Shown: positions 5,352 to 23,249 of the stretch, in pieces
Layout: each line of letters begins with the position of its first letter
How positions within the stretch are numbered: position 1 is the stretch's first letter
DNA from: Bacillota bacterium
GTDB lineage: Bacteria; Bacillota; UBA4882; UBA10575
Assembly (NCBI GenBank): GCA_012837715.1
Contig: DUQR01000024.1
Location: 1-32,609, forward strand
Direction: 5' to 3'
DNA length: 32,609 bases
Notes under the pieces: generated by a model
The model's database searches: none
Told to the model about the DNA's origin: nothing
The model's input: only the letters and a program-made list of their open reading frames with translations
Position numbers and translations under genes: made by a program

Positions 5352-6266
5352 ATGCCTTTATTTAGCACCAAGGGTATGTTACTCGACGCCCAAAGTAAAG
5401 GATATGCCGTCGGCGCCTTTAACGCCAATAATTTAGAAATGGCGCAAGGCATTGTGATGGCTGCCGAGAAAGAAAATGCTCCAGTTATTGTTCAAGTGAG
5501 CCAAGGGGGCGCTGAACATGGTGGCGTAGAGGAGATGGCGGCCATTATTCGGAGTCTGGCGGTGAAAGCCTCGGTTCCGGTGGCCTTACATCTGGATCAT
5601 GGCGTGGATTTTGTTTATAATATCCGCTGTCTGCGGGCAGGCTTTACTTCCCTAATGTATGACGGATCAAATCTGGATTTTGCTGAGAATGTCCGGATTA
5701 CCAGAGATGTGGTGAGAGCGGCGCATGCCGTTGGGGTTCCGGTTGAAGCGGAGCTGGGAAAAGTACCGAAGGATCCAACCGGCATTACCTTGGGGGAACT
5801 GCAAAAATATTTGACCTGTCCGGAGGAAGCCAAGGCCTTTGTGGAACAGACCGGAGTGGATGCATTGGCGATCGCGGTTGGTAATATGCACAAGATGAAG
5901 ATTAAAGAGGCCAAAATAGATCTCGAGCGGATTAAAGCCATCCGACAAGTGGTCGCTGTTCCCCTGGTTTTACACGGCGCCTCCGGTGTTCCGGATGAAG
6001 CGGTAACCGCCGCTGTCAAGGCGGGGATCTGTAAGATTAATGTCCATACCCAACTGAGCAAGAGATTTACTGAGAAAATCCGGGAAATCTTCCAGGCAGA
6101 TCCGTATACGGTTGATCTCCGGAAATATCTGGGGGAAGCCCGTGAAGCCCTTATGGAAGAAGTGCGTGCCAAGATTCGTTTGTTCGGGGCCAATGGAAAA
6201 GCTCCCGGTGTCCGGGAGGTTGCCATCGAGCCGGAAGAATATACTAAACAGGAGATTGTTGAATAA
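5352..6266 (+). CDS. Class II (zinc) fructose-bisphosphate/ketose-bisphosphate aldolase, short form
   Basis: This 304-residue class II aldolase splits fructose 1,6-bisphosphate, or a related ketose bisphosphate, into two trioses. The motif LHLDHG places catalytic Asp82 and zinc ligand His83; EAELGKV is the second metal region, VLHGASGVPDE holds another zinc histidine, and INVHTQL binds phosphate. It is the shorter GatY/FbaA-like type, unlike the longer second copy at 28233-29240, so substrate may differ (fructose, tagatose or sedoheptulose bisphosphate). Context with transketolase and transaldolase suggests it drains or feeds the pentose phosphate loop. It is the last gene before a strong terminator. 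Confidence 0.88.
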   Translation: MPLFSTKGMLLDAQSKGYAVGAFNANNLEMAQGIVMAAEKENAPVIVQVSQGGAEHGGVEEMAAIIRSLAVKASVPVALHLDHGVDFVYNIRCLRAGFTSLMYDGSNLDFAENVRITRDVVRAAHAVGVPVEAELGKVPKDPTGITLGELQKYLTCPEEAKAFVEQTGVDALAIAVGNMHKMKIKEAKIDLERIKAIRQVVAVPLVLHGASGVPDEAVTAAVKAGICKINVHTQLSKRFTEKIREIFQADPYTVDLRKYLGEAREALMEEVRAKIRLFGANGKAPGVREVAIEPEEYTKQEIVE

Positions 6267-11274: not shown

Positions 11275-13326
11275 ATGGACAATATACAGCAAGTCGTCAA
11301 GCTTCTAAAAAGTAGGGAAGGGAAGCGGGAACGGGATTTCTTTATCCCGGAAGCCTGGAACTATTTTGGTTACACAGCTTATGTAAAAGATCCGGGGCGT
11401 CCCGGGGAGATCCGGGTGTGCCCGGAACATTTTTACCGTTCTTGTCTGGAAAGAATAATCCGGGCCGGACAGGAAGGCTCTTCTTCCCGTACGGCGCCGA
11501 AAGGAACCGTTGGGCTCCTGGAGGACGGGGCGGTGATCTACGGGATGTTTCCCCGCACCTTTACGGCTTGGCCCCATCACGAGGACAACCGGCCGAATCC
11601 CGGCACTTTCTTGAAGTCCATGGCTTTATTGCCGTTCTTAAAAGAGCTGGGAGTGGGCATTATTTATCTTCTGCCCGTTTTTGCCTCCGGGGCTAAATAT
11701 TGCAAAGGTGAGTTGGGGAGTCCTTATGCGATTAAGAACCATTATCGCTTGGCTTCCGAGTTACATGATCCCCTCTTGAAGGGGGAGACTATTGGTGTCG
11801 AAGAAGAATTTAAAGCTTTTATCGAGGCCTGCCACCTTTTGGGGATGAAGGTCATGGTGGATTTCGTCTTCCGGACGGTTGCCCGGGATCATGATTTGAT
11901 TCTTGACCACCCCGACTGGTTTTACTGGATAAAAATCCGGACGGAGACCGGATTTTCCCTGCCACCGGCAGAGAAGACACCGCCGCTGACTTACCCCCGG
12001 GGGAAAGCCCTCCGTCGACTCTACCGTACTAAAGAGCTCCGCGCCTATCTACAGCAATTTACTTGTCCCCCATCGGAGTTGGACCCCAAAGGTTGGGCGG
12101 AAATTAAAGCCCGGCACCACCGGACCGGAGAGAATATTCTCTCCTTGATCGAGGAGACCTTTGGGATCACGACGGCGCCCGGTTTTTCCAATATGTTGAA
12201 TGATCCGCAGCCACCTTGGTTTGATGTCACCTATTTAAAGCTTTTCTTTGATTTACACCGGGAAGCCCGCATCTATCTGGGAAAGCCCGGGCCGGTTCCG
12301 GACCGCTCTTTCCATGGGTTCGCCCCTTTTATTCTTCAAGACGGGGCTTGTGCCAACCTCTATCAAGGAGAAGCGCCCAATTATGAATTATGGGCCTATC
12401 TGTCCGACGTTATCCCGTATTACCAGAAGGTTTATGGGATTGATGGCGCCCGAATCGATATGGGACATGCGCTTCCACCGACCTTACTCCGGAGCTTGAT
12501 TCAAGCGGTGAAGGAGGTCAACCCGGCTTTTCTGTTGTGGTCGGAGGAATTTCACCCGCGCAATGCGGCGGCGATGAAACGAAACGGCTTCCATTTTATT
12601 ACCGGCGGTTTATGGACTCTCTATAAACGCTGGTTGGATCCGGACTTCCCAGTGGAAATGGTTCGGCAGACTTTCCACTCGGCTTTGCCGGTGACCGCCG
12701 CGTTGGAAATGCCGGATACTCCCCGTTTGGCCTATTATTATCAGGACAAACGGCCGATCGAAATCTTAATGCTCTTGAATTATCTTTTGCCGAATTCGAT
12801 CCCCTATATCAATAACGGACTGGAATTACTTGAACGCCAGCCAATGAATTTAGGGCTGGATAATACGGAGGAAGGCCGGTATGTGCTCGAACCGGATGAT
12901 CCGATGTACGGTAAGCTCGCCTTTTTTGACAATTACTGTTTGCATTGGCGGAACGATGATTTTGCATGGATGAGCGCTTTATTGCGCACAGCTAACGATG
13001 TACGCATCCGCTATTTCGGTTTAATTAAGGACCAACGAAACTTTTTGTGGTCTTATAACCGGCGCAAACGGAAAAAACTGCTTTGCCTGGGTTATTACTC
13101 CACAGCGGAACAAAGGGGTTTTGTTTTCTTGGCCAATAAGGATCTCCGGCAAGCGACCGAAATTTGGTGGGAAAAAGTGTTACCCCGGCCTTTCCGGGCT
13201 CACCCGGGGGTCCGCTTGGTTTATCCGGCGGGAAAAGAACAATTGGTTTGGCCGGTGACGGAAAAGTGGGAGTTAGCGCCGGGAGAAGTGATCATCTTAG
13301 AGACTGGGGAAGAGGAGGCTTATTAA
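11275..13326 (+). CDS. GH13 enzyme, maltosyltransferase-like
   Basis: This 683-residue alpha-amylase-superfamily protein has a TIM barrel with conserved regions in order: MVDFVFRTVARDHD, GARIDMGHALP (nucleophile Asp395, Arg393), LLWSEEFHP (acid/base Glu424) and LEMPDTPR (Asp481). The usual His-Asp of region IV is Pro-Asp. That change, with GHALP, PNSIPYINNG and QPMNLGLD, recalls the Thermotoga maltosyltransferase rather than a hydrolase, so I infer transfer of maltosyl units between maltodextrins. No signal peptide is seen, so it acts in the cytosol. A small GAGAG/CTCTC hairpin sits just before its ribosome binding site (GGGGAGG). Its TAA overlaps the ATG of the phosphorylase gene by one base, so the two are coupled. 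Confidence 0.8.
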   Translation: MDNIQQVVKLLKSREGKRERDFFIPEAWNYFGYTAYVKDPGRPGEIRVCPEHFYRSCLERIIRAGQEGSSSRTAPKGTVGLLEDGAVIYGMFPRTFTAWPHHEDNRPNPGTFLKSMALLPFLKELGVGIIYLLPVFASGAKYCKGELGSPYAIKNHYRLASELHDPLLKGETIGVEEEFKAFIEACHLLGMKVMVDFVFRTVARDHDLILDHPDWFYWIKIRTETGFSLPPAEKTPPLTYPRGKALRRLYRTKELRAYLQQFTCPPSELDPKGWAEIKARHHRTGENILSLIEETFGITTAPGFSNMLNDPQPPWFDVTYLKLFFDLHREARIYLGKPGPVPDRSFHGFAPFILQDGACANLYQGEAPNYELWAYLSDVIPYYQKVYGIDGARIDMGHALPPTLLRSLIQAVKEVNPAFLLWSEEFHPRNAAAMKRNGFHFITGGLWTLYKRWLDPDFPVEMVRQTFHSALPVTAALEMPDTPRLAYYYQDKRPIEILMLLNYLLPNSIPYINNGLELLERQPMNLGLDNTEEGRYVLEPDDPMYGKLAFFDNYCLHWRNDDFAWMSALLRTANDVRIRYFGLIKDQRNFLWSYNRRKRKKLLCLGYYSTAEQRGFVFLANKDLRQATEIWWEKVLPRPFRAHPGVRLVYPAGKEQLVWPVTEKWELAPGEVIILETGEEEAY

Positions 13327-14936
13327 TGGGGAAAAAGCAGAATGCTGTACCCACCATCGCTTATTTTTGTATGGAATTTGGGTTAGACGAAAGTTTTCCC
13401 ATTTATTCGGGGGGACTGGGCATTTTAGCCGGTGATATTCTTAAGGAAGCCAAAGCCGGTGGTTACCCCATGGTCGGGGTCGGCATTTTATGGCGTCAAG
13501 GCTATACTTCCCAACGGATTGATCCTCAGGGCTACCCCTATGATTCCTATTATGAGCGACGCTATGATTTTCTTGAAGATACCGGAATCACGGTTCGGAT
13601 CCGCGTCCGGGGGCGGCAGATTAAGTGTAAGGTCTGGAAGTGTACCCAGTTTGATCATGTCCCTCTTTACCTCTTGGATGCAAATTTACCGGAGAATGAG
13701 GACCGCTTGATTACCGGTCAATTGTATGGCTGGTTTTCGGAAGAGCGGATTGCCCAGGAGATGATCCTAGGGATCGGCGGGGTTAAAGCCCTCCGCGCTT
13801 TAAACCTTCCGGTATCCATCTACCATTTTAACGATAGCCATCCGGTTTTTGCCGGGGTGGAATTAATCCGGGCCATGATGGACGAAGAGGGCCTAAGCTT
13901 TGAGGAATCCTGGGCCAAGGCGAAAAGAAAAATTGTCTTTACCACCCATACCCCGGTAAAAGCGGGAAATGAAGTCCATGATCACGAGCTGTTAAGGTAC
14001 ATGGGCGCCTATAATGGGTTGACTTTTGGGCAAATGCTCCGTTTGGGGGGCGAACCCTTTTCGATGACCGTTGCCGGGTTGCGCCTGGCGAGGAAAGCCA
14101 ATGCCGTGGCTCAGTTGCATGGGGAAACCGCCCGGCGGATGTGGGGGGATGTGCCGGGCGCGGCTAAGATCATTGCCATTACCAATGGCGTCTTTCGTGG
14201 GACCTGGCAAGACCAACGTATGGCCAAAGCTTTTGCGTGCAAAGAAGACTTATGGGCCCCGCACCAACAGGCAAAGCGGGAAATGATTACCGAGATTTAC
14301 CGGCGCAGTGGTGTCCGGCTGGACGAGGATGTTTTAACTTTTGGCTTTGCCCGCCGGGTGGCCCCCTACAAACGGGGGAATTTAATCTTTAGCAAACCGG
14401 AAATAATCGGGGAATACCTGGAAAAAGGCCGGCTCCAGCTGGTTTTTGCCGGTAAAGCCCACCCCAACGATTTAGCCGGGAAGGAGATTGTTGCCGATTT
14501 ATACCGGATGAGCAAAAGATATCCGCAGAGTGTGGTCTTTTTGGAAGACTACGATATGGAGTTGGGGCGGCTCCTGACCCGGGGATGTGATGTCTGGTTG
14601 AACAACCCCCGGCGTCCCCAGGAAGCCAGTGGAACTTCGGGGATGAAGGCGGCGATGAACGGGGTCTTAAACTTTAGCACCTTGGACGGCTGGTGGCCGG
14701 AAGGTTGTGTCCACGGGGTGAACGGCTGGCAGTTCGGGGATGGGTACGAAGGAAAAGACCAGGATACCCACGACCGGGACGCCCTCTACCGGGTTCTCCG
14801 GACGGAAGTGATTCCCACCTATTATCAACAACGGAGCAAATGGCTGGCAATGATGGGCGCTTCGATCGAAATGGCGCAGGAGCAATTTTCCACAGCCCGG
14901 ATGTTAAAAGAGTATTTTGCCCAGTTGTATCGTTAA
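13326..14936 (+). CDS. glgP: Alpha-glucan phosphorylase (GT35, short form)
   Basis: This 536-residue protein is the short type of glucan phosphorylase that releases glucose 1-phosphate from maltodextrin or glycogen. Key parts are YFCMEFGL and SGGLGILAGD at the N terminus, FTTHTPVKAGNE, AITNGV, the phosphate-site region FARRVAPYKR, and the pyridoxal phosphate lysine in SGTSGMKAAMNG (Lys441). I chose ATG 13326 because it overlaps the stop of the GH13 gene and starts the conserved MGKK..IAYFCMEFG segment; the frame is open upstream to 13164 but only as an overlap with the GH13 gene. Together the pair would remodel and then phosphorolyse linear dextrins. A strong terminator follows. Confidence 0.93.
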   Translation: MGKKQNAVPTIAYFCMEFGLDESFPIYSGGLGILAGDILKEAKAGGYPMVGVGILWRQGYTSQRIDPQGYPYDSYYERRYDFLEDTGITVRIRVRGRQIKCKVWKCTQFDHVPLYLLDANLPENEDRLITGQLYGWFSEERIAQEMILGIGGVKALRALNLPVSIYHFNDSHPVFAGVELIRAMMDEEGLSFEESWAKAKRKIVFTTHTPVKAGNEVHDHELLRYMGAYNGLTFGQMLRLGGEPFSMTVAGLRLARKANAVAQLHGETARRMWGDVPGAAKIIAITNGVFRGTWQDQRMAKAFACKEDLWAPHQQAKREMITEIYRRSGVRLDEDVLTFGFARRVAPYKRGNLIFSKPEIIGEYLEKGRLQLVFAGKAHPNDLAGKEIVADLYRMSKRYPQSVVFLEDYDMELGRLLTRGCDVWLNNPRRPQEASGTSGMKAAMNGVLNFSTLDGWWPEGCVHGVNGWQFGDGYEGKDQDTHDRDALYRVLRTEVIPTYYQQRSKWLAMMGASIEMAQEQFSTARMLKEYFAQLYR

Positions 14937-15236: not shown

Positions 15237-15851
15237 ATGTTACGTCGAAAGTTATTTTCTGCCCGGGCAGGCAAGTTGTTCTGTATTATACTGGTCTTGG
15301 TTGTTTTGGCGTTAGCTGTTACCGGGTGCGGCGGCGGAGGCGGGAAAACTGGTAACGGCGGAAACGGCGGAAACGGTGGAAACGGTGGAAACGGTGGAAA
15401 CGGCGGCAGCGCCGATTTTAGTGCCTTTAAAGGGGTATGGAAGAGTGAGAACGTGTCGCCTACGGTTGAAATTACAGTCAGTGAAGTGATTGCGGGTGAC
15501 GATCAAAGTGATTTTCTTCGATATTTTACAGGGAAGGTTACTTGTAATGTTTTTAAGGGGGGACATCTGGATATTACCGCCTCGGATAACTTTATATTGG
15601 GTGATAATTACATTTTGGCAAGCCTCGTCAAAGCTGGCCAGCAGACAATGAAAACTATCATAATCAGGGCAAGGGAAGAAGTTGAGGATGAATTCGGAAG
15701 CAGTGTTGCCAACGAGCTTCAATTGGAAGGGTATTTGCCGGATGCTAATACTTTAAAAGCTTCGCGGATGGAAATTACCAGTAAAAATGAAATGATATAC
15801 GAATTTGATCCTGAAGATGGTACTGTGTTTCTAACCTTCAAAAAACAGTAA
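15237..15851 (+). CDS. Lipoprotein with Gly-Asn repeat linker, unknown function
   Basis: This 204-residue protein starts with a lipoprotein signal: MLRRK, a hydrophobic core, and the lipobox AVTGC with Cys31 as the lipid-modified residue. A flexible linker of repeated Gly-Asn-Gly units follows (residues about 37-57), then a domain of about 145 residues beginning ADFSAFKGVWKSENVS. The GVWKS opening and alternating strands suggest a small beta-barrel of the kind often found in surface lipoproteins, but I recognise no named family. The ribosome binding site AGAGGAA is eight bases before ATG 15237. It stands alone between the glucan terminator and the convergent sensory operon. Confidence 0.75.
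   Translation: MLRRKLFSARAGKLFCIILVLVVLALAVTGCGGGGGKTGNGGNGGNGGNGGNGGNGGSADFSAFKGVWKSENVSPTVEITVSEVIAGDDQSDFLRYFTGKVTCNVFKGGHLDITASDNFILGDNYILASLVKAGQQTMKTIIIRAREEVEDEFGSSVANELQLEGYLPDANTLKASRMEITSKNEMIYEFDPEDGTVFLTFKKQ
15351..15404 (+). repeat. 9-nt tandem repeat (minisatellite) in the lipoprotein gene
   Basis: Six near-identical 9-base units of form GGWAACGGY encode (Gly-Asn-Gly) repeats just after the lipobox cysteine. Units differ only at the third positions and in the first unit. Because units are multiples of three, gain or loss changes linker length without a frameshift. Confidence 0.9.
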
Positions 15852-15993: not shown

Positions 15994-17661
15994 TTATTGT
16001 TTTTGTCGAACATCCGGTTTACCGTCGACCTCTTGCATCATCTTAACATAAACCAGCAATTCTTTTCTGGAGGAAACGTTAAGCTTTGTATAGATCCTTT
16101 TGTTATGGGTTTTAATGGTGTTAATGGATAGGCACAAAATCTTGGCGATTTCTTGGGCCGTATATCCCTCCATATAGAGGTTGAAGACCGCCCGTTCGGC
16201 AGGGGAAAGGGTCTTGATATTTTTCACAAAGGCGCTGAATAAGGCGGAGGACTCGATCGGTTCTTTCGACGGTCCGGGAAGATCGTCGTTGGTCGCGTCT
16301 TGGGCGGCTAAAAAAGCAATCAGATCGTCGATCTCTTGAATGTTGGTTTTCATATCCCCGGAAACCTTGCGTTCTTTAACCATTTCCAGAGCGCCAAGCA
16401 CCGGAGCCACGGATTTACGGCTGATCAGCAAGGCTGTACCCACACTAAAGATGAACAGCGCAAAAAGGAGAACTAGAAACAGTTGGTTTTGGCGCCTTAT
16501 ATTTGCCCTTAGATCTTGATTTGGGATCAAGACGGCCAGAGCCCATTCCTCTTCCGAAAAGGCGGCATTCTTCGGATAAAGGTTTATTTTTTGGTGGAGG
16601 CCGAAATAAATCGACCCGTCCGCCGATGACAAATAACTTGAAATTCCTTTTCTCGGCGACATAATTGATAAAACACCGCCGCTTTGCAAGGGGAGGGCGC
16701 TGTAATTCCCGGCGTACATCGCTTTAGAGGTGTTAAGAACATCCCCATACAAAGGCGCGAAGATGGTAAAAGCCCGTGTGTAGGTGGAGTTGTTGGGCGT
16801 GTTCTTGAGCTTGAACAACATGGCGCTGACCTCGAATCCGCAAACGCCGATCACTGTACCGTCGGAGGTTCTGAGCGGTACGCACAACAACATGGCTTTT
16901 TCGTAATTGCCGACCAATGCGGAACAGGGGTTCCAGTAATATAAGCGTGACAGGGGAAGAACACTGCCGGTCGCGGCGTTTATGGTTTTAAAAAAAAAGT
17001 CGCCCGGCGTTACCTGGAATTCCATTTGCCATTGGGGCAGTAAATTAAGATGCAGTTGCCGGGCAATGGCAAAGGAGCCCCGTAAAAAGCGGATCGTCGG
17101 AAAAGTAAGATTGATCACGTTGGGTTCCATGTTTTTAAGGAAAAGCCCGGCCCGGGAGTTTTCCGCGGTGGGCAGCGCCGGATTGACGGTGGCGTCCAGG
17201 ATTAGGAAGACACCGCTGCATTTGTTCTTTTGCAAAGCCGTGAGCAACCGGTCGGCCGCTTCGCTCAAGATTGGCTCTAACAGATGGGGATGGTTTTTTA
17301 GCCCGGAAGGGTTTACACCGGCGGTTTTTAGCTTTCTTTCAATTTGCTCAGCCAAACTTTCAGCCAGAGCCACCCCTTCTACAGAGAGGGCGCCAAATTC
17401 CTGTGCTACATTCCCGGTAATATGTTCAAGCTCGTTTTTTAAAAAAACATGACACTCCTTAAAGCCAACGGAAAAACCTCCGGTGGAGAAAAGGAGCAAA
17501 AATAATCCCGACATCACGGCCAACAAAAAGAGGATAAAATAAACAAATGTATGCCATCGTAAAGAAAGCCGGGGTTCTTTAAACAAGCCGATTTTTCTCT
17601 GGATTTTTTGTAATGAGATTGATTTTAACATGCTTGCCGCACCTGCCAACGGATTTTTCAT
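15994..17661 (-). CDS. Membrane-anchored LuxR-type transcriptional regulator
   Basis: This 555-residue protein has a short cytoplasmic N terminus, a transmembrane helix at about 38-60, and a large outside domain of about 340 residues with Cache-like features. A second helix follows at about 400-422, then a short linker, then a LuxR/GerE helix-turn-helix at about 478-540 (LSPAERAVFNLYMEGYTAQEIAKIL, NTIKTHNKRIYTKL). There is no kinase or receiver domain, so it is a one-component receptor that would bind DNA while in the membrane. Its ATG overlaps the stop of the solute-binding gene (ATGA), so both are made together, and the binding protein is its likely ligand-presenting partner (inference). 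Downstream, 15927-15956 holds only a weak AAATAGT/ACTATTT inverted repeat; no clear terminator was seen. Confidence 0.85.
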   Translation of the reverse strand: MKNPLAGAASMLKSISLQKIQRKIGLFKEPRLSLRWHTFVYFILFLLAVMSGLFLLLFSTGGFSVGFKECHVFLKNELEHITGNVAQEFGALSVEGVALAESLAEQIERKLKTAGVNPSGLKNHPHLLEPILSEAADRLLTALQKNKCSGVFLILDATVNPALPTAENSRAGLFLKNMEPNVINLTFPTIRFLRGSFAIARQLHLNLLPQWQMEFQVTPGDFFFKTINAATGSVLPLSRLYYWNPCSALVGNYEKAMLLCVPLRTSDGTVIGVCGFEVSAMLFKLKNTPNNSTYTRAFTIFAPLYGDVLNTSKAMYAGNYSALPLQSGGVLSIMSPRKGISSYLSSADGSIYFGLHQKINLYPKNAAFSEEEWALAVLIPNQDLRANIRRQNQLFLVLLFALFIFSVGTALLISRKSVAPVLGALEMVKERKVSGDMKTNIQEIDDLIAFLAAQDATNDDLPGPSKEPIESSALFSAFVKNIKTLSPAERAVFNLYMEGYTAQEIAKILCLSINTIKTHNKRIYTKLNVSSRKELLVYVKMMQEVDGKPDVRQKQ

Positions 17662-19019
17662 AGATTGATAAAGGCGCTGTAAAGTTCTTCGCTGACAATG
17701 GACGGGGCTTTATTATCCTGGAGAACGCTCTTCCTTCCTGTCAACATTAGTTGTTTCAACCTAAGCTCGTATTCTTTACTTAACCTGTCAAATTGTTCGT
17801 AGTTTGGTGGAATCATGAAGGTGTATTCCTCGTACATGTGCGTGGTCGCTTCCAGCAATTTCTGGAGATTTGGCGTTTTCGCCGCATAAATCTCCTGTTT
17901 CATATTGTTTTCAAAGGCTTCTTTGGTTACCGGCAAATAACCGGTGGAATAAACAAAACGCATATTCTGCTCAGGTTGGGTGAACCATTTCAAAAACAAG
18001 GCAGCGGCGTATTCCTTTTTGGGTGAAGAGCGTTTGACGCACATCCCCCCGCCCCGCTGGATCGCGATATTTTTACCGCCCCGAAAGACCGGATAAGGCA
18101 AGATACTATAGGTGACCGCCTCAGTGGTATTATCGGGATAAGTAATACTGTCGCCGTAAAAAAGGATTCCAGCTGTAGAACCGATTGAGCAGACGATCTC
18201 ACCGGTTTTGGCCAGGTCGGAGGAATAACCGTCGGTCACAGCATAACCGCCGGTAAGCGCGGGAAGAACACTAAAGTCCCAAATGGGCTTAAAGAGATCC
18301 AAAGTAACATTCAGCTGATCCGGAAAGACAAATTCCCCACCCAATTGGGCGACGCCGACTTGAGCAATGTTGAACCAGGAATCGGCGACAAAGAATGTCT
18401 TGCCGTCATTGACGATATTGGGTGTCAGCGAATCTGTCCATTCATAATACTTAACCGCAGCTTCAGCAATCCCCTCAAAAGTTGCGAGGCTCCCAAGCTG
18501 AACACCGGTGGCCGCAGAAAAACGATCAAACAAGGTCTGATTAACGAACAAAACCTCGGTCGATTTAGCGATCGGAAAAACATAAAGTTTACCGTCGGAC
18601 AGCCGGCCTTCTTTGACAAATTGGGGCAGATAAGCATCCAGTTCCTTCGTGGTGAATTGTTCGTCCAAAGGGGCCAAAAGTCCTTGTTCACACAGAATGA
18701 GGGCGGTTTTCGGATAAGTTGTCACAATATCGGGCATCTCCGGCGCTCCGGGATCGCCCGCAGCAAGCATGAACAGTTTTTCTTGGATATCTTTTGAAGC
18801 CGAAATGGAGGTAACACTGATTATAATGCCTTTTTTCCGCCCAATCGTACTGTTGAACTTGTCGATCAGTTCGTCCATTACGCTTTGCATCTGACCGCCA
18901 TAGTTATGCCACATTGTGATTATTACCGGGTTTTTGGGATCCAGTCTTTCACCAATACACCCAATGATCGAAACAAATAACGTTAGACAGAAAGTCGTAA
19001 AGACTATCTTTCTCTTCAA
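17658..19019 (-). CDS. Solute-binding lipoprotein, extracellular family 1, without permease
   Basis: This roughly 453-residue protein belongs to the sugar-type ABC binding proteins: ITMWHNYGGQ at the mature N terminus, FNSTIG, a central DIVTTYPK, LFVNQTLFDRF, and C-terminal EYAAALFLKWFTQPEQN with GYLPVTKEAF. A lipobox (SIIGC, Cys21) shows that it is anchored outside the inner membrane. I chose TTG 19019 (MKRKIVF), because GGAGG lies eight bases upstream; ATG 19034 is a real alternative and the frame is open to 19067. There are no permease or ATPase genes within the window; the only partner is the overlapping membrane LuxR regulator. That makes a sensing rather than transport role likely, as an inference. 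Confidence 0.88.
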   Translation of the reverse strand: MKRKIVFTTFCLTLFVSIIGCIGERLDPKNPVIITMWHNYGGQMQSVMDELIDKFNSTIGRKKGIIISVTSISASKDIQEKLFMLAAGDPGAPEMPDIVTTYPKTALILCEQGLLAPLDEQFTTKELDAYLPQFVKEGRLSDGKLYVFPIAKSTEVLFVNQTLFDRFSAATGVQLGSLATFEGIAEAAVKYYEWTDSLTPNIVNDGKTFFVADSWFNIAQVGVAQLGGEFVFPDQLNVTLDLFKPIWDFSVLPALTGGYAVTDGYSSDLAKTGEIVCSIGSTAGILFYGDSITYPDNTTEAVTYSILPYPVFRGGKNIAIQRGGGMCVKRSSPKKEYAAALFLKWFTQPEQNMRFVYSTGYLPVTKEAFENNMKQEIYAAKTPNLQKLLEATTHMYEEYTFMIPPNYEQFDRLSKEYELRLKQLMLTGRKSVLQDNKAPSIVSEELYSAFINL

Positions 19020-19049
19020 TTGAAACGCCTCCATTTTACCACCGTTGAT

Positions 19050-19143
19050 CTTCGTGTGCGCGGGCAAAAGAAATTACAACTCTGGTAATAGCTTCTTCTT
19101 TCCCCTCGCGTTGCTCTTCGTGTGCCTGCGGGTAAAAGAAATT
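19050..19143. repeat. Imperfect direct repeat upstream of the solute-binding gene
   Basis: CTTCGTGTGC..GGGCAAAAGAAATT at 19050-19075 recurs as CTTCGTGTGC..CGGGTAAAAGAAATT at 19116-19143, a 66-base offset with a two-base insertion. It lies between the operator cluster and the gene start, in the 5' leader of the minus-strand operon. It may be a degenerate tandem duplication or a small dispersed repeat. Confidence 0.6.
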
Positions 19144-19196
19144 GGAACCTCCTCCAGAATTCCCCAAATGGCCTCTGTTGATTTTCACACTTGCGC

Positions 19197-19261
19197 GGTG
19201 ATCAAGAAAATCACCCCAAAAATCACCCTTTTTAAGGGCCGTAATCACCCTTGGGGTGATT
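19197..19261. promoter_or_regulatory. Cluster of ATCACC half-sites, probable operator
   Basis: Five copies of one six-base word occur in 65 bases: GGTGAT 19197-19202, ATCACC 19210-19215, ATCACC 19222-19227, ATCACC 19244-19249 and GGTGAT 19255-19260. The outer pairs form dyads; the right one is a perfect AATCACCC-ttg-GGGTGATT palindrome (19243-19261). Direct copies are 12 and 22 bases apart, near one and two helical turns. The cluster lies between the divergent sensory operon and BTAD regulator, about 180 bases from the former start and 300 from the latter. It is a likely binding site for one of these regulators or for a shared one. Confidence 0.65.
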
Positions 19262-19560
19262 ACTAGAAATGGAATATGCAGTATAGTAAAGAAGAAAGCC
19301 CTAGAATAATCCGCGTGAATAAAAGTAAAAAAATCGTAAACAAAATCCCATTCTTTATTTTATCAATAATATGCGACAAGTCAATAATGGAAAGGGTAGC
19401 TTTGCCAATAATTTTATTGCTCGCTTTTTGTGTTGCAATCGATAAAACAGATTCAAATCCATATATGGTTCTTAACTCAATTTTGGCGATCAATATTTTG
19501 TATTTGAAGCGATCAATCTAAGGTCAACGCAAAAAGCCATGTTGGGAGGAAAATGCACAA
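19262..19560 (+). promoter_or_regulatory. AT-rich leader of the BTAD gene with motif copy 2
   Basis: This stretch is clearly more AT-rich than its surroundings. It holds GCTTTTTGTGTTG at 19423-19435 and an inverted partner CAACGCAAAAAGC at 19525-19537, the same arrangement as before the lipoprotein gene. The bases following the first arm (TTGCAATCGATAAAACA) match the copy at 21422 (TTGCAACCAATAAAATA). An 81-codon open frame (19276-19521) crosses it but has no ribosome binding site and I do not support it. No clear -35/-10 pair was found. Confidence 0.4.
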
Positions 19561-20823
19561 ATGCATTTTGAGGGAGACTCCGGACAAAAAAAGTTAGAAC
19601 AGAAAAACACCGGCTGTTTGCATAAAAATCCTCTTAACCCTAATACTTTAGCAGAACATCTGCTGTGCTATGGGGATGAAATCTTGCGGCAAATGGAAGG
19701 TGCTCAGTATATCGGGATAATTAACCGTTCCCTTCGGGCCTTGAGCTATTTAAAGAAAGGGGAGCGGGATGAAGCACTGACGATCGGAGAAAACGCTTAT
19801 CAGGATGCGCTCTTACATGGAGGAATAGTAACACCCATCTGTGAAATGATTCTCGGTCTGATCTTACTGGAAATGGGAAAGGATAAGGAAGCGGGAGAAA
19901 GATGGAAAAATTCGGCGGCCTTACTGATCAAGATGGCCAGGCAAATCACGCCCGAGAATAGTAGTCGGGGGAAGCTACGGCCTATTAATTTGGAGGGTAG
20001 GGGCAGTAATCGTCTGGTCAAGATCGAACCTGGAAACTACTCCGAAGCGAGAAGCGAGGATGGTTCCTATCTTTTCCGAATCCAAATGTTCGGGTCGTTC
20101 CGGGTTTTTCATCGCCAGGAAGAAATCAAGGCCAACTGGCGGACGGTTAAATCCCGTGACCTTTTAGCCTATCTTGCCCATTGGGGTAAACCGGTAAGTA
20201 CCGGCCAAATTTTGGAGGATTTATGGCCGGATCTTGATGCGGATAAAGCCTCCGCTGTGTTTCACACTACACTTTATTATTTACGCCAGCTTATACAGCG
20301 GTATACGAAGGAAGAGATAATCATTTACGGTTCTAGACGTTATCAACTCCGCCCCGGAAGTGTTTTGATTGATAGATATCAATTTGAAGAAGCAATGCAA
20401 AGAGCCCTGGGCAAAACCATGACGGAGACTTTGGCGAATGAACTGGAAACCACGGCTGCTCTTTATCGTGGCGATTATCTTGAGGATCTAGACTACCAAT
20501 GGGTGATTCCGGTTCAAGAAAAACTGAAAAATATCAACATCAGTTTAAAGCAAGAACTGGCCGGCTATTATTTGAAAAACAAGATGTATTCACGGGCTCT
20601 GGTCCATATCAGACAGCTCAGGGCGGAGGACCCGTATTCCGAAGAAGTGTTGCGTTTATTATTGGCAACCCTTGCCGGAAAGGGAGATCTATTGGCTGTA
20701 AAAAAAGAATATACAGCCTTCGCTAAAACCCTCTTTGAAGAATTGGGTATCCAGCCGTCTTACGAGACAAAGGCTTTTTTCAAAGAATTATGCCAGGTCA
20801 AATCAGCAATAATGTATGCTTGA
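19561..20823 (+). CDS. Transcriptional regulator with TPR-like, winged-helix and BTAD domains
   Basis: This 420-residue protein belongs to the SARP/BTAD class of activators. Residues about 55-125 are helical repeats of TPR type (RALSYLKKGERDEALTIGE). Residues about 172-265 form an OmpR-like winged helix (IQMFGSFRVFHRQEEI, KSRDLLAYLAHWGK, ILEDLWPDLD), and about 270-412 a bacterial transcriptional activation domain (LYRGDYLEDLDYQW, RALVHIRQLRAEDPYSEE). It lacks the large NTPase module of longer MalT-like relatives, so it may be a stand-alone form or a trimmed one. ATG 19561 follows GGGAGGA by about 10 bases; ATG 19553 is out of frame. Placed divergently to the solute-binding/LuxR operon, it may act in the same circuit. 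Confidence 0.85.
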   Translation: MHFEGDSGQKKLEQKNTGCLHKNPLNPNTLAEHLLCYGDEILRQMEGAQYIGIINRSLRALSYLKKGERDEALTIGENAYQDALLHGGIVTPICEMILGLILLEMGKDKEAGERWKNSAALLIKMARQITPENSSRGKLRPINLEGRGSNRLVKIEPGNYSEARSEDGSYLFRIQMFGSFRVFHRQEEIKANWRTVKSRDLLAYLAHWGKPVSTGQILEDLWPDLDADKASAVFHTTLYYLRQLIQRYTKEEIIIYGSRRYQLRPGSVLIDRYQFEEAMQRALGKTMTETLANELETTAALYRGDYLEDLDYQWVIPVQEKLKNINISLKQELAGYYLKNKMYSRALVHIRQLRAEDPYSEEVLRLLLATLAGKGDLLAVKKEYTAFAKTLFEELGIQPSYETKAFFKELCQVKSAIMYA

Positions 20824-21593: not shown

Positions 21594-23249
21594 ATGGAAA
21601 TGATCAGAATACAACTGGCCGGAGAGACGAAGGTCGTGACCAAAGGAGTCACCGTCCAGGAGGTCTTGGAGGCATGGCCTGGACAGAGTCATCCTCAAAT
21701 CGTGGCGGCAATCGTCGGGAAAGATCTGCGGGAGCTCTCTTTTTGCTTAACTGAGGATACAACCATTATGCCGGTGGATCTAACCCATGTGGACGGAGTG
21801 CGGATCTATAGCCGGAGTTTAATGATGGTCTTTATTCGCGCGGCCAAAGAAATTTTCCCCCATTGTCAGGTCAGGATCATGTATTCGCTGAGTAAAGGCC
21901 TCTATGGGGAGCTTTACATTGGCCGGTCTCTGCTGGAAAAGGATCTTCGGCAGATCGAACAAAGAATGCGGACGATTATCGCCGCTGATGAAAAAATTGA
22001 GAAACTACGAATGCCAGTGGAAGAAGCGATTAAAATTTTCGAAGAGGAAGGTTTAACCGACAAAGTAAAATTAATGGGCTACAAGCAAACTAAAGAAATC
22101 TCCGTTTACCGTTGCGGCGATTATTATGATTACTATTTCGGTTATATGCTACCCAGCACCGGGTTTTTAAAGGAATTTGAGTTACTATTTCATCTTCCCG
22201 GTTTCATCCTCCGGTTCCCGTCGCAAGCTTCGCCGGAAAAAGTCCCCCCCTATGTCGAACAGCGCAAACTCTCCCAGGTGTTTTATGAATATGAAAAATG
22301 GGGTGAAGTTTTAGGGGTTAGTGATCTTGCTTCTCTGAATCGGTTGATTGAGGCCAAGAAGGGAGAAGAATTAATTCGTTTGGCCGAAGCGCTCCAGGAA
22401 AAGAAGATTGCCCAGATTGCCGATGAGATAACCCGGGACCGGGAAAGGGTACGGTTGGTGATGATCGCCGGCCCGTCCTCTTCCGGTAAAACCACCTTTA
22501 CCCAACGTCTGGCCATTCAACTTCGGGTCAATGGGGTGCGTCCGGTCTCCTTGTCTTTAGACGATTATTTTGTCAGCCGGGAATTTACGCCCCGCAACGA
22601 AAAAGGAGAACCGGATTTTGAAGCCCTGGAAGCGATTGATCTTGACCTTTTTAACGAACAGTTAGCCGATCTGATTATGGGGGAAAAGGTGGAGATTCCC
22701 CGGTTCAACTTCATGAAGGGGGAACGGGAATATCGAGGCGAAGTCCTGCAGATTAAACCGGACCAACCAATTTTAATCGAGGGTATCCACGGATTAAACG
22801 AACGGTTGACCCAAACGGTGCCGAAGGACCGGAAATTCAAGGTTTATATCAGCGCCTTGACCCAATTGAATATGGATAACCATAACCGGATCCCGACAAC
22901 GGATAACCGTCTGATCCGGCGGATCGTCCGGGACAGCCAGTTCCGTTCCCACGATGCTCTAACTACCTTGCGGCTTTGGACGGCGGTCCGGGCCGGGGAA
23001 GAAAAGAATATCTTTCCCTTCCAGGAGGAAGCTGATCTTATGTTTAATTCAGCCCTCACTTATGAACTGGCCATTCTCAAAAAGTATGTAGAACCGCTCT
23101 TAAAAGCCATCCCACCGGATGTTCCTGAATATGCGGAGGCTAAACGGCTGTTGAAGTTCACTGCTTACTTTTTACCCCTGGACGAGAAGGAAGTGCCGAC
23201 CAACTCGATTCTGCGGGAATTTATCGGCGGAAGTTGTTTCGAGTGTTAA
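21594..23249 (+). CDS. Nucleoside (uridine-type) kinase with N-terminal TGS and ThrRS-like domains
   Basis: This 551-residue protein has three parts. Residues about 1-70 are a TGS domain. Residues about 75-265 resemble the second additional (editing) domain of threonyl-tRNA synthetase. Residues about 285-500 are a uridine kinase/phosphoribulokinase domain with Walker A GPSSSGKTTF (Lys299), then SLDDYFVSREFTPRNEKGEPDF and LIEGIHGLN. It phosphorylates a nucleoside, likely uridine or cytidine. The histidine pair (HxxxH) of the editing domain is replaced by Arg and Met, so editing is unlikely and the region may bind RNA or ligand. Such fusions are widespread in Clostridia. GAAGGAGG precedes ATG 21594. 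Confidence 0.85.
   Translation: MEMIRIQLAGETKVVTKGVTVQEVLEAWPGQSHPQIVAAIVGKDLRELSFCLTEDTTIMPVDLTHVDGVRIYSRSLMMVFIRAAKEIFPHCQVRIMYSLSKGLYGELYIGRSLLEKDLRQIEQRMRTIIAADEKIEKLRMPVEEAIKIFEEEGLTDKVKLMGYKQTKEISVYRCGDYYDYYFGYMLPSTGFLKEFELLFHLPGFILRFPSQASPEKVPPYVEQRKLSQVFYEYEKWGEVLGVSDLASLNRLIEAKKGEELIRLAEALQEKKIAQIADEITRDRERVRLVMIAGPSSSGKTTFTQRLAIQLRVNGVRPVSLSLDDYFVSREFTPRNEKGEPDFEALEAIDLDLFNEQLADLIMGEKVEIPRFNFMKGEREYRGEVLQIKPDQPILIEGIHGLNERLTQTVPKDRKFKVYISALTQLNMDNHNRIPTTDNRLIRRIVRDSQFRSHDALTTLRLWTAVRAGEEKNIFPFQEEADLMFNSALTYELAILKKYVEPLLKAIPPDVPEYAEAKRLLKFTAYFLPLDEKEVPTNSILREFIGGSCFEC

Follow-up and report, generated by a model that had tools for sequence, protein, structure and literature searches.

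Introduction

The closest described systems pair a solute-binding protein (SBP) with a membrane receptor that signals through a kinase. In CuaDSR of Ruminiclostridium cellulolyticum, CuaD binds CuaS and triggers the neighbouring operon (PMC10384115), and XylFII-LytS, as outlined where that system is cited in PMC9769921, likewise couples a dedicated SBP to a receptor kinase. Both resemble the pair described here in that the gene for a dedicated sensing SBP lipoprotein lies beside a membrane receptor gene, but both signal via a histidine kinase and a response regulator, whereas in our locus the receptor carries the DNA-binding domain; because kinase and response regulator are absent, the pair is no member of these three-component systems. 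In the GlnH-GlnX-PknG system of Corynebacterium glutamicum, a periplasmic binding protein likewise signals via a transmembrane partner, but the output is a Ser/Thr kinase instead of DNA binding and the GlnX ectodomains are four-helix bundles (PMC9769921). DadR, HcdR, and CadR of Eggerthella lenta share with our receptor a C-terminal LuxR-type helix-turn-helix (HTH) on a membrane protein and activate nearby genes, but they have 10–12 transmembrane (TM) helices and no binding protein (PMC9734109), whereas our receptor combines two TM segments and a large domain outside the cell with an SBP as its obligate neighbour.

A literature search, which covered few subscription journals, found no description of an SBP–LuxR membrane pair. 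Classical LuxR, acting at the lux box, shares with our receptor a GerE HTH and an inverted-repeat site at the class II position, but it is soluble and binds an autoinducer, whereas the receptor is membrane-embedded. Activators of the ToxR/TcpP type turn on the AraC regulator ToxT; as proposed for our receptor, a membrane one-component activator there acts on the gene for a soluble transcription factor, but these proteins use an OmpR-type winged helix and no SBP.

Here we analyse a 32,609-nucleotide stretch from a Bacillota bacterium (the window), among whose relatives is a metagenome-assembled genome labelled Hydrogenispora. A first-pass annotation had proposed that an SBP lipoprotein, a membrane LuxR-type protein, and a BTAD-domain regulator possibly form a new extracellular sensing system. 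Our analysis narrows that claim: within binding-protein-assisted sensing, it is the type of output that is new.

Results

Genes and protein domains of the locus

The open reading frames lie as the first-pass annotation had read them, with a real ATGA overlap and with the BTAD gene divergent from the SBP and receptor genes (Table 1), and Pfam searches found no kinase, receiver, permease, or ATPase in any of the three proteins.

Table 1. Positions of the main features in the window; residue numbers refer to the receptor.
Feature	Position	Strand	Basis or remark
Membrane-bound receptor and regulator (555 aa; 27 relatives aligned), running TM1, outside domain, TM2, HAMP-like linker, LuxR/GerE HTH	15994..17661	-	
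LuxR/GerE HTH, residues 484-538	16048..16212	-	PF00196; recognition helix nearly invariant
Receptor outside domain (PDC/Cache-like), residues 61-392	16486..17481	-	Homologues
ATGA overlap: SBP stop 17658-17660, receptor ATG 17659-17661	17658..17661	-	
SBP lipoprotein gene, SBP_bac_8 (MalE/UgpB fold class)	17658..19019 or 19034	-	Pfam, fold model, lipobox
Two further ATCACCC half-sites, 19210-19216 and 19222-19228	19210..19228	+	Spacing as in relatives
Candidate operator palindrome ATCACCCTTGGGGTGAT, 7-3-7 (ATCACCC-NNN-GGGTGAT)	19244..19260		Only exact copy in the source genome
TATAGT, -10 box of the divergent BTAD promoter; begins 30 bp past the palindrome centre	19282..19287	+	
Likely SBP-receptor operon promoter, TTGACT-N16-TAAAAT, toward the SBP	19357..19384	-	Consensus only
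BTAD-domain transcription regulator, likely target gene	19561..20823	+	Pfam BTAD 6.7e-13

The SBP matched SBP_bac_8 in Pfam (8.7e-29), and its presumed lipoprotein status was upheld by an IIGC lipobox whose cysteine, C26, is invariant in 19 relatives. TTG at 19019 is the more likely start, because ATG at 19034 overlaps a conserved GGAGGCG ribosome site that serves TTG, GTG, or ATG starts in relatives. The fold model of the SBP (pLDDT 84.5) matched sugar-, dinucleotide-, and UgpB-class binding proteins in the PDB; the top match was a dinucleotide-binding protein, a match that does not fix the ligand. The sugar-like ligand suggested in the first-pass annotation found no support.

That the second gene encodes a membrane LuxR protein with a large outside domain was likewise borne out. 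Two hydrophobic segments (residues about 36–68 and 391–417) are separated by ~330 aa, 8 K/R versus 1 D/E precede the first of them, and PF00196 (GerE) matched the C-terminus with an E value of 2e-14 (about 53.4–57.6 bits, cut-off 23.5). GerE was the sole Pfam match in the receptor: no histidine kinase or receiver (HisKA, HATPase) was found, nor was an autoinducer-binding domain, the N-terminus consisting of the TM segment and the outside domain. A conserved P...EIDDL segment after TM2 resembles a shortened HAMP linker, a likeness seen by sequence inspection and matched by no profile.

The AlphaFold model of the receptor was poor (mean pLDDT 63, with no significant PDB match outside the HTH), so we argue the fold of its ectodomain from homologues. 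A Pfam search of the LuxR-branch outside domain gave no match above threshold, and hhalign gave a weak collinear match to dCache_1 proteins (E 0.0016, probability 16%). Homologous ectodomains with other outputs (see below) scored 26.7 and 35.7 bits against PF22673 (MCP-like_PDC_1; cut-off 27), and these matches point to the PDC/Cache class for the ectodomain, the LuxR branch itself lying below threshold.

For the divergent gene, read earlier as encoding a 'TPR-wHTH-BTAD' regulator, the BTAD is secure (49.7 bits, cut-off 22.1), the winged HTH (Trans_reg_C) scored 20.9 bits, below its cut-off of 26.2, and no significant TPR was found by Pfam at the N-terminus. The BTAD is common to AfsR/SARP-type regulators, but here it occurs in a short 420-aa form; a BTAD paralogue in the source genome is a >1100-aa protein.

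Other genes flank the three. A small lipoprotein of no known family (15237–15851, + strand), convergent with the receptor gene, is kept in place in five loci (the window, L023, L025, L026, and L028). At 21594–23249 the window encodes a PRK-domain protein resembling uridine kinases; its N-terminal region is matched by an NCBIfam model for threonyl-tRNA synthetase. In six loci (L023–L027 and L034), the BTAD gene is accompanied by genes for a CsgG-family protein and a 366–383-aa protein without a Pfam match, which could be surface genes under BTAD control.

The SBP and receptor are inherited together

Receptor loci were collected from the genome collection (17 loci) and, for the remainder, by a phylum search. 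The SBP gene lies directly upstream of the receptor gene in 27 of 28 receptor loci, the exception (G170) having its genes on contig edges; the pair is thus strictly kept, and loss of conservation, which would have told against a joint function, was not seen. Across 61 related genomes, the 15 that have the receptor are also those that have the SBP, apart from one additional SBP (32% identical). More widely, the receptor is present in about 5% of sampled Bacillota genomes, scattered over families (22/398, a count that takes in three genomes with an HTH remnant or fragment only). Within the window's family, the BTAD orthologue accompanies the pair in 12/12 pair-positive genomes and occurs in 0/4 pair-negative ones, and close BTAD orthologues are found there only alongside the pair.

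Traces of decay were also seen. The window's own genome holds a fragment of a broken second receptor gene (L128, G000:C52, 2926–3065), with 19 residues at 89% identity followed by 32 at 62% in another frame. Lone receptor-type HTH remnants adjoin an iron-type alcohol dehydrogenase gene in two genomes (L071, ~5750–5980, in G043; L072, ~5985–6240, in G159); both are without an SBP of the pair's family near the remnant and without an exact palindrome genome-wide.

A conserved palindrome at class II distance from a divergent -10 box

The first-pass annotation had noted a cluster of half-sites between the divergent genes. A single palindrome in the window alone is unsurprising at 3 mismatches; compared with relatives, the cluster is far beyond chance and constitutes a conserved candidate operator. 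In the window the additional half-sites are separated from the palindrome arm by 34 and 22 bp, and in nearly all relatives the palindrome is upstream of the SBP gene and accompanied by one or two half-sites at about 22–23 and 34–35 bp. An exact copy is present in 21/26 genomes that have the receptor and in 1/48 that lack it (Fisher P about 1e-12, uncorrected for kinship and optimistic to that extent, with the receptor positives spanning many families), and the lone copy in a receptor-negative genome has no -10 at the expected distance. Each tested pair-carrying genome of the window's family, the source included, has exactly one exact copy. No recognisable palindrome was found at L064 (G156) or in G170, both receptor-positive.

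In 23 of 24 loci, the target strand bears a -10-like hexamer (at least 5/6 matches to TATAAT) whose first base is 30–31 bp from the palindrome centre, against a background of 1.3% per offset in the same sequences; for L066, which has two palindromes, the promoter-proximal one was counted. A -10 at this distance places the palindrome centre at about -42 from the expected start, which is the position of the lux box, where classical LuxR acts, and of other class II sites. From this geometry and distribution, we infer that ATCACCC-NNN-GGGTGAT is the operator read by the receptor HTH. The BTAD gene, proposed earlier as a possible target, is a stronger candidate for two reasons: the conserved operator stands at class II distance from its promoter, and its orthologues are limited to carriers of the pair.

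The site is tied to the likely target gene

Almost every locus of the BTAD clade keeps a likely SBP-facing promoter of the form TTGACT-N16-TAAAAT, which suggests basal expression of the sensor by transcripts that would cross the operator; feedback on the SBP operon by this route is possible. One could then hold that the receptor represses from the site, the palindrome in the SBP-operon leader serving as a roadblock for autoregulation, since the promoter lies upstream of the palindrome and the SBP transcript crosses it. The strictly kept distance, however, is to the divergent -10 and not to the SBP promoter. Moreover, in L036 and L037 the region upstream of the SBP gene has no palindrome, which stands instead before a zinc-ribbon gene located downstream of the receptor gene, and unlinked copies of the palindrome have no SBP downstream either. 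We therefore regard repression from the site as unlikely and have demoted autoregulation from the main role, although a roadblock may operate in addition to activation.

The arrangement in L036 and L037 and the unlinked copies assign the site, on genomic distribution, to the target gene and not to the SBP. The linked target varies by lineage, being a BTAD, AraC-type (in L061, HTH_18 at 88.5 bits), zinc-ribbon, DUF4870-like, or lipoprotein gene. The unlinked copies, found in genomes with more than one palindrome, precede genes for lipoprotein, beta-helix, PAS-AraC, and small DUF4870-like membrane proteins, the last being of the same kind as the linked neighbour in other lineages. For 10/11 of these copies, one orientation shows a -10 at +29 to +31. 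A candidate regulon list comprises L186, L187, L188, and L189 (G403), L194 (G405), and L192 and L193 (G368). The presence of two unrelated transcription factors, BTAD and AraC, in the same slot suggests a recurring design in which a membrane switch activates a soluble regulator.

The pair lacks dedicated permeases

The SBP is of the MalE/UgpB class used by CUT1 ABC importers, and it could be an ordinary importer component with unlinked permeases, the membrane LuxR protein sensing the ligand directly and regulating uptake. Besides the fold, this reading can draw on the 32%-identical relative, which belongs to an SBP-ATPase-permease-permease operon (L103), and on a similar case (L173). The cognate permeases of a CUT1 importer, however, were found neither linked to the pair nor, as judged by MalF/MalG type, in the genome of the 98%-complete carrier G037, whose ten permease-domain genes are of oligopeptide type, with one SsuC-like and one amino-acid type. 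A Pfam scan of 133 neighbour proteins found no recurrent BPD_transp_1, and a profile search found MalF/MalG-type permeases in only 2/29 loci: a separate permease operon with its own SBP about 4 kb off in L021, and one match at the far locus edge in L031. Regular adjacency of permeases, which the first-pass annotation had named as grounds for abandoning its proposal, is thus not what we observed. The SBP is, in addition, never separated from the receptor and always upstream of it, and exact sites stand at genes for regulators, lipoproteins, and small membrane proteins, not at transport operons. A role for the SBP in ordinary import is accordingly quite improbable.

Genes for a 683-aa GH13-like protein and a glycogen-phosphorylase-like protein adjoin the locus in the window (11275–14936) and in L021 (5384–9052), where they come after the ABC operon with its own SBP; we dropped them as a functional clue, as they are common to one close relative only. 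The MtnA-like and class II aldolase-like genes beside the transporter SBP of L103 were too weak a ligand hint.

The sensing module occurs with other outputs

A profile search with the outside domain alone recovered, besides the receptors, a single divergent protein, encoded in G383. It is 992 aa long, joins the same ectodomain to GGDEF-EAL domains, and comes after a second SBP of the family (L144, 3129–7666). In G253, the gene after another SBP of the family encodes a PDC-PAS-GGDEF-hybrid histidine kinase-receiver protein of 1317 aa, again with the ectodomain (L172, 2419–7849). By their domain content, the former is a predicted c-di-GMP version of the system and the latter a predicted third output type. 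The palindrome is absent at both loci, as expected if the LuxR HTH reads it; SBP and ectodomain would therefore make up the sensing module, with the palindrome tied to the LuxR output.

Binding of the palindrome by the BTAD protein or another soluble regulator, with the LuxR receptor acting elsewhere, would fit the window's family, in which the BTAD gene adjoins the site. The site is nevertheless kept without BTAD in L032, L033, L061–L063, and L066–L070, and the receptor is the sole regulator common to all those lineages; we reject BTAD as the binder on the persistence of the site without it, and consider the broader reading very unlikely, although the palindrome may yet be bound by a second, cryptic regulator that is encoded at another place in the genome and inherited along with the receptor. 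An action of the inverted repeat as RNA (a leader hairpin or attenuator) is scarcely credible: its arms are complementary, but they lack covariation, the repeat lies upstream of the inferred divergent start, the additional half-sites fall at roughly 11–12-bp multiples, and copies precede unlinked genes.

Discussion

Comparison across genomes establishes the pair, the lack of a dedicated permease, the candidate operator with its promoter geometry, and the link of that site to the receptor and the target gene. We think it likely, with good confidence, that the pair is a two-protein, kinase-free extracellular sensor, in which the SBP, once it has bound its ligand, acts on a LuxR-type activator in the membrane, and this activator switches on a cytoplasmic regulator, in our locus the BTAD protein. 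In such a mechanism, the membrane-tethered SBP would bind its ligand outside and, once liganded, dock on the PDC/Cache-like outside domain of the receptor; the signal would pass via TM2 and the HAMP-like linker to the LuxR HTH. The HTH would bind ATCACCC-NNN-GGGTGAT, as the comparative genomics supports, and the bound receptor would activate, instead of repress, the promoter whose -10 lies 30–31 bp from the palindrome centre. Given that the site is nearly confined to carriers of the pair, a membrane DNA-binding protein probably turns on the neighbouring regulator gene straight from the membrane. Because the only exact site in the source genome faces the BTAD gene, the circuit there would run from ligand to SBP to membrane LuxR protein to BTAD regulator and on to BTAD targets, with the BTAD protein as a relay.

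On balance, we lean toward regarding the orphan SBP and PDC-type receptor as an undescribed class: a class II activator acting in the membrane, through a single operator in the genome of most carriers and often upon a further, soluble regulator, and built on a module that evolution has re-coupled to c-di-GMP enzymes and hybrid kinases.

If this account is true, the pair would be binding-protein-assisted sensing at its simplest, needing a lipoprotein and an activator embedded in the membrane but neither kinase nor phosphorelay. With an operator known to the base and unique in most carriers, the long-standing question of how a regulator held in the membrane locates a single DNA site and drives RNA polymerase would be directly testable, and the three outputs on one sensing module would provide a natural domain-swap series for studying how SBP docking is read.
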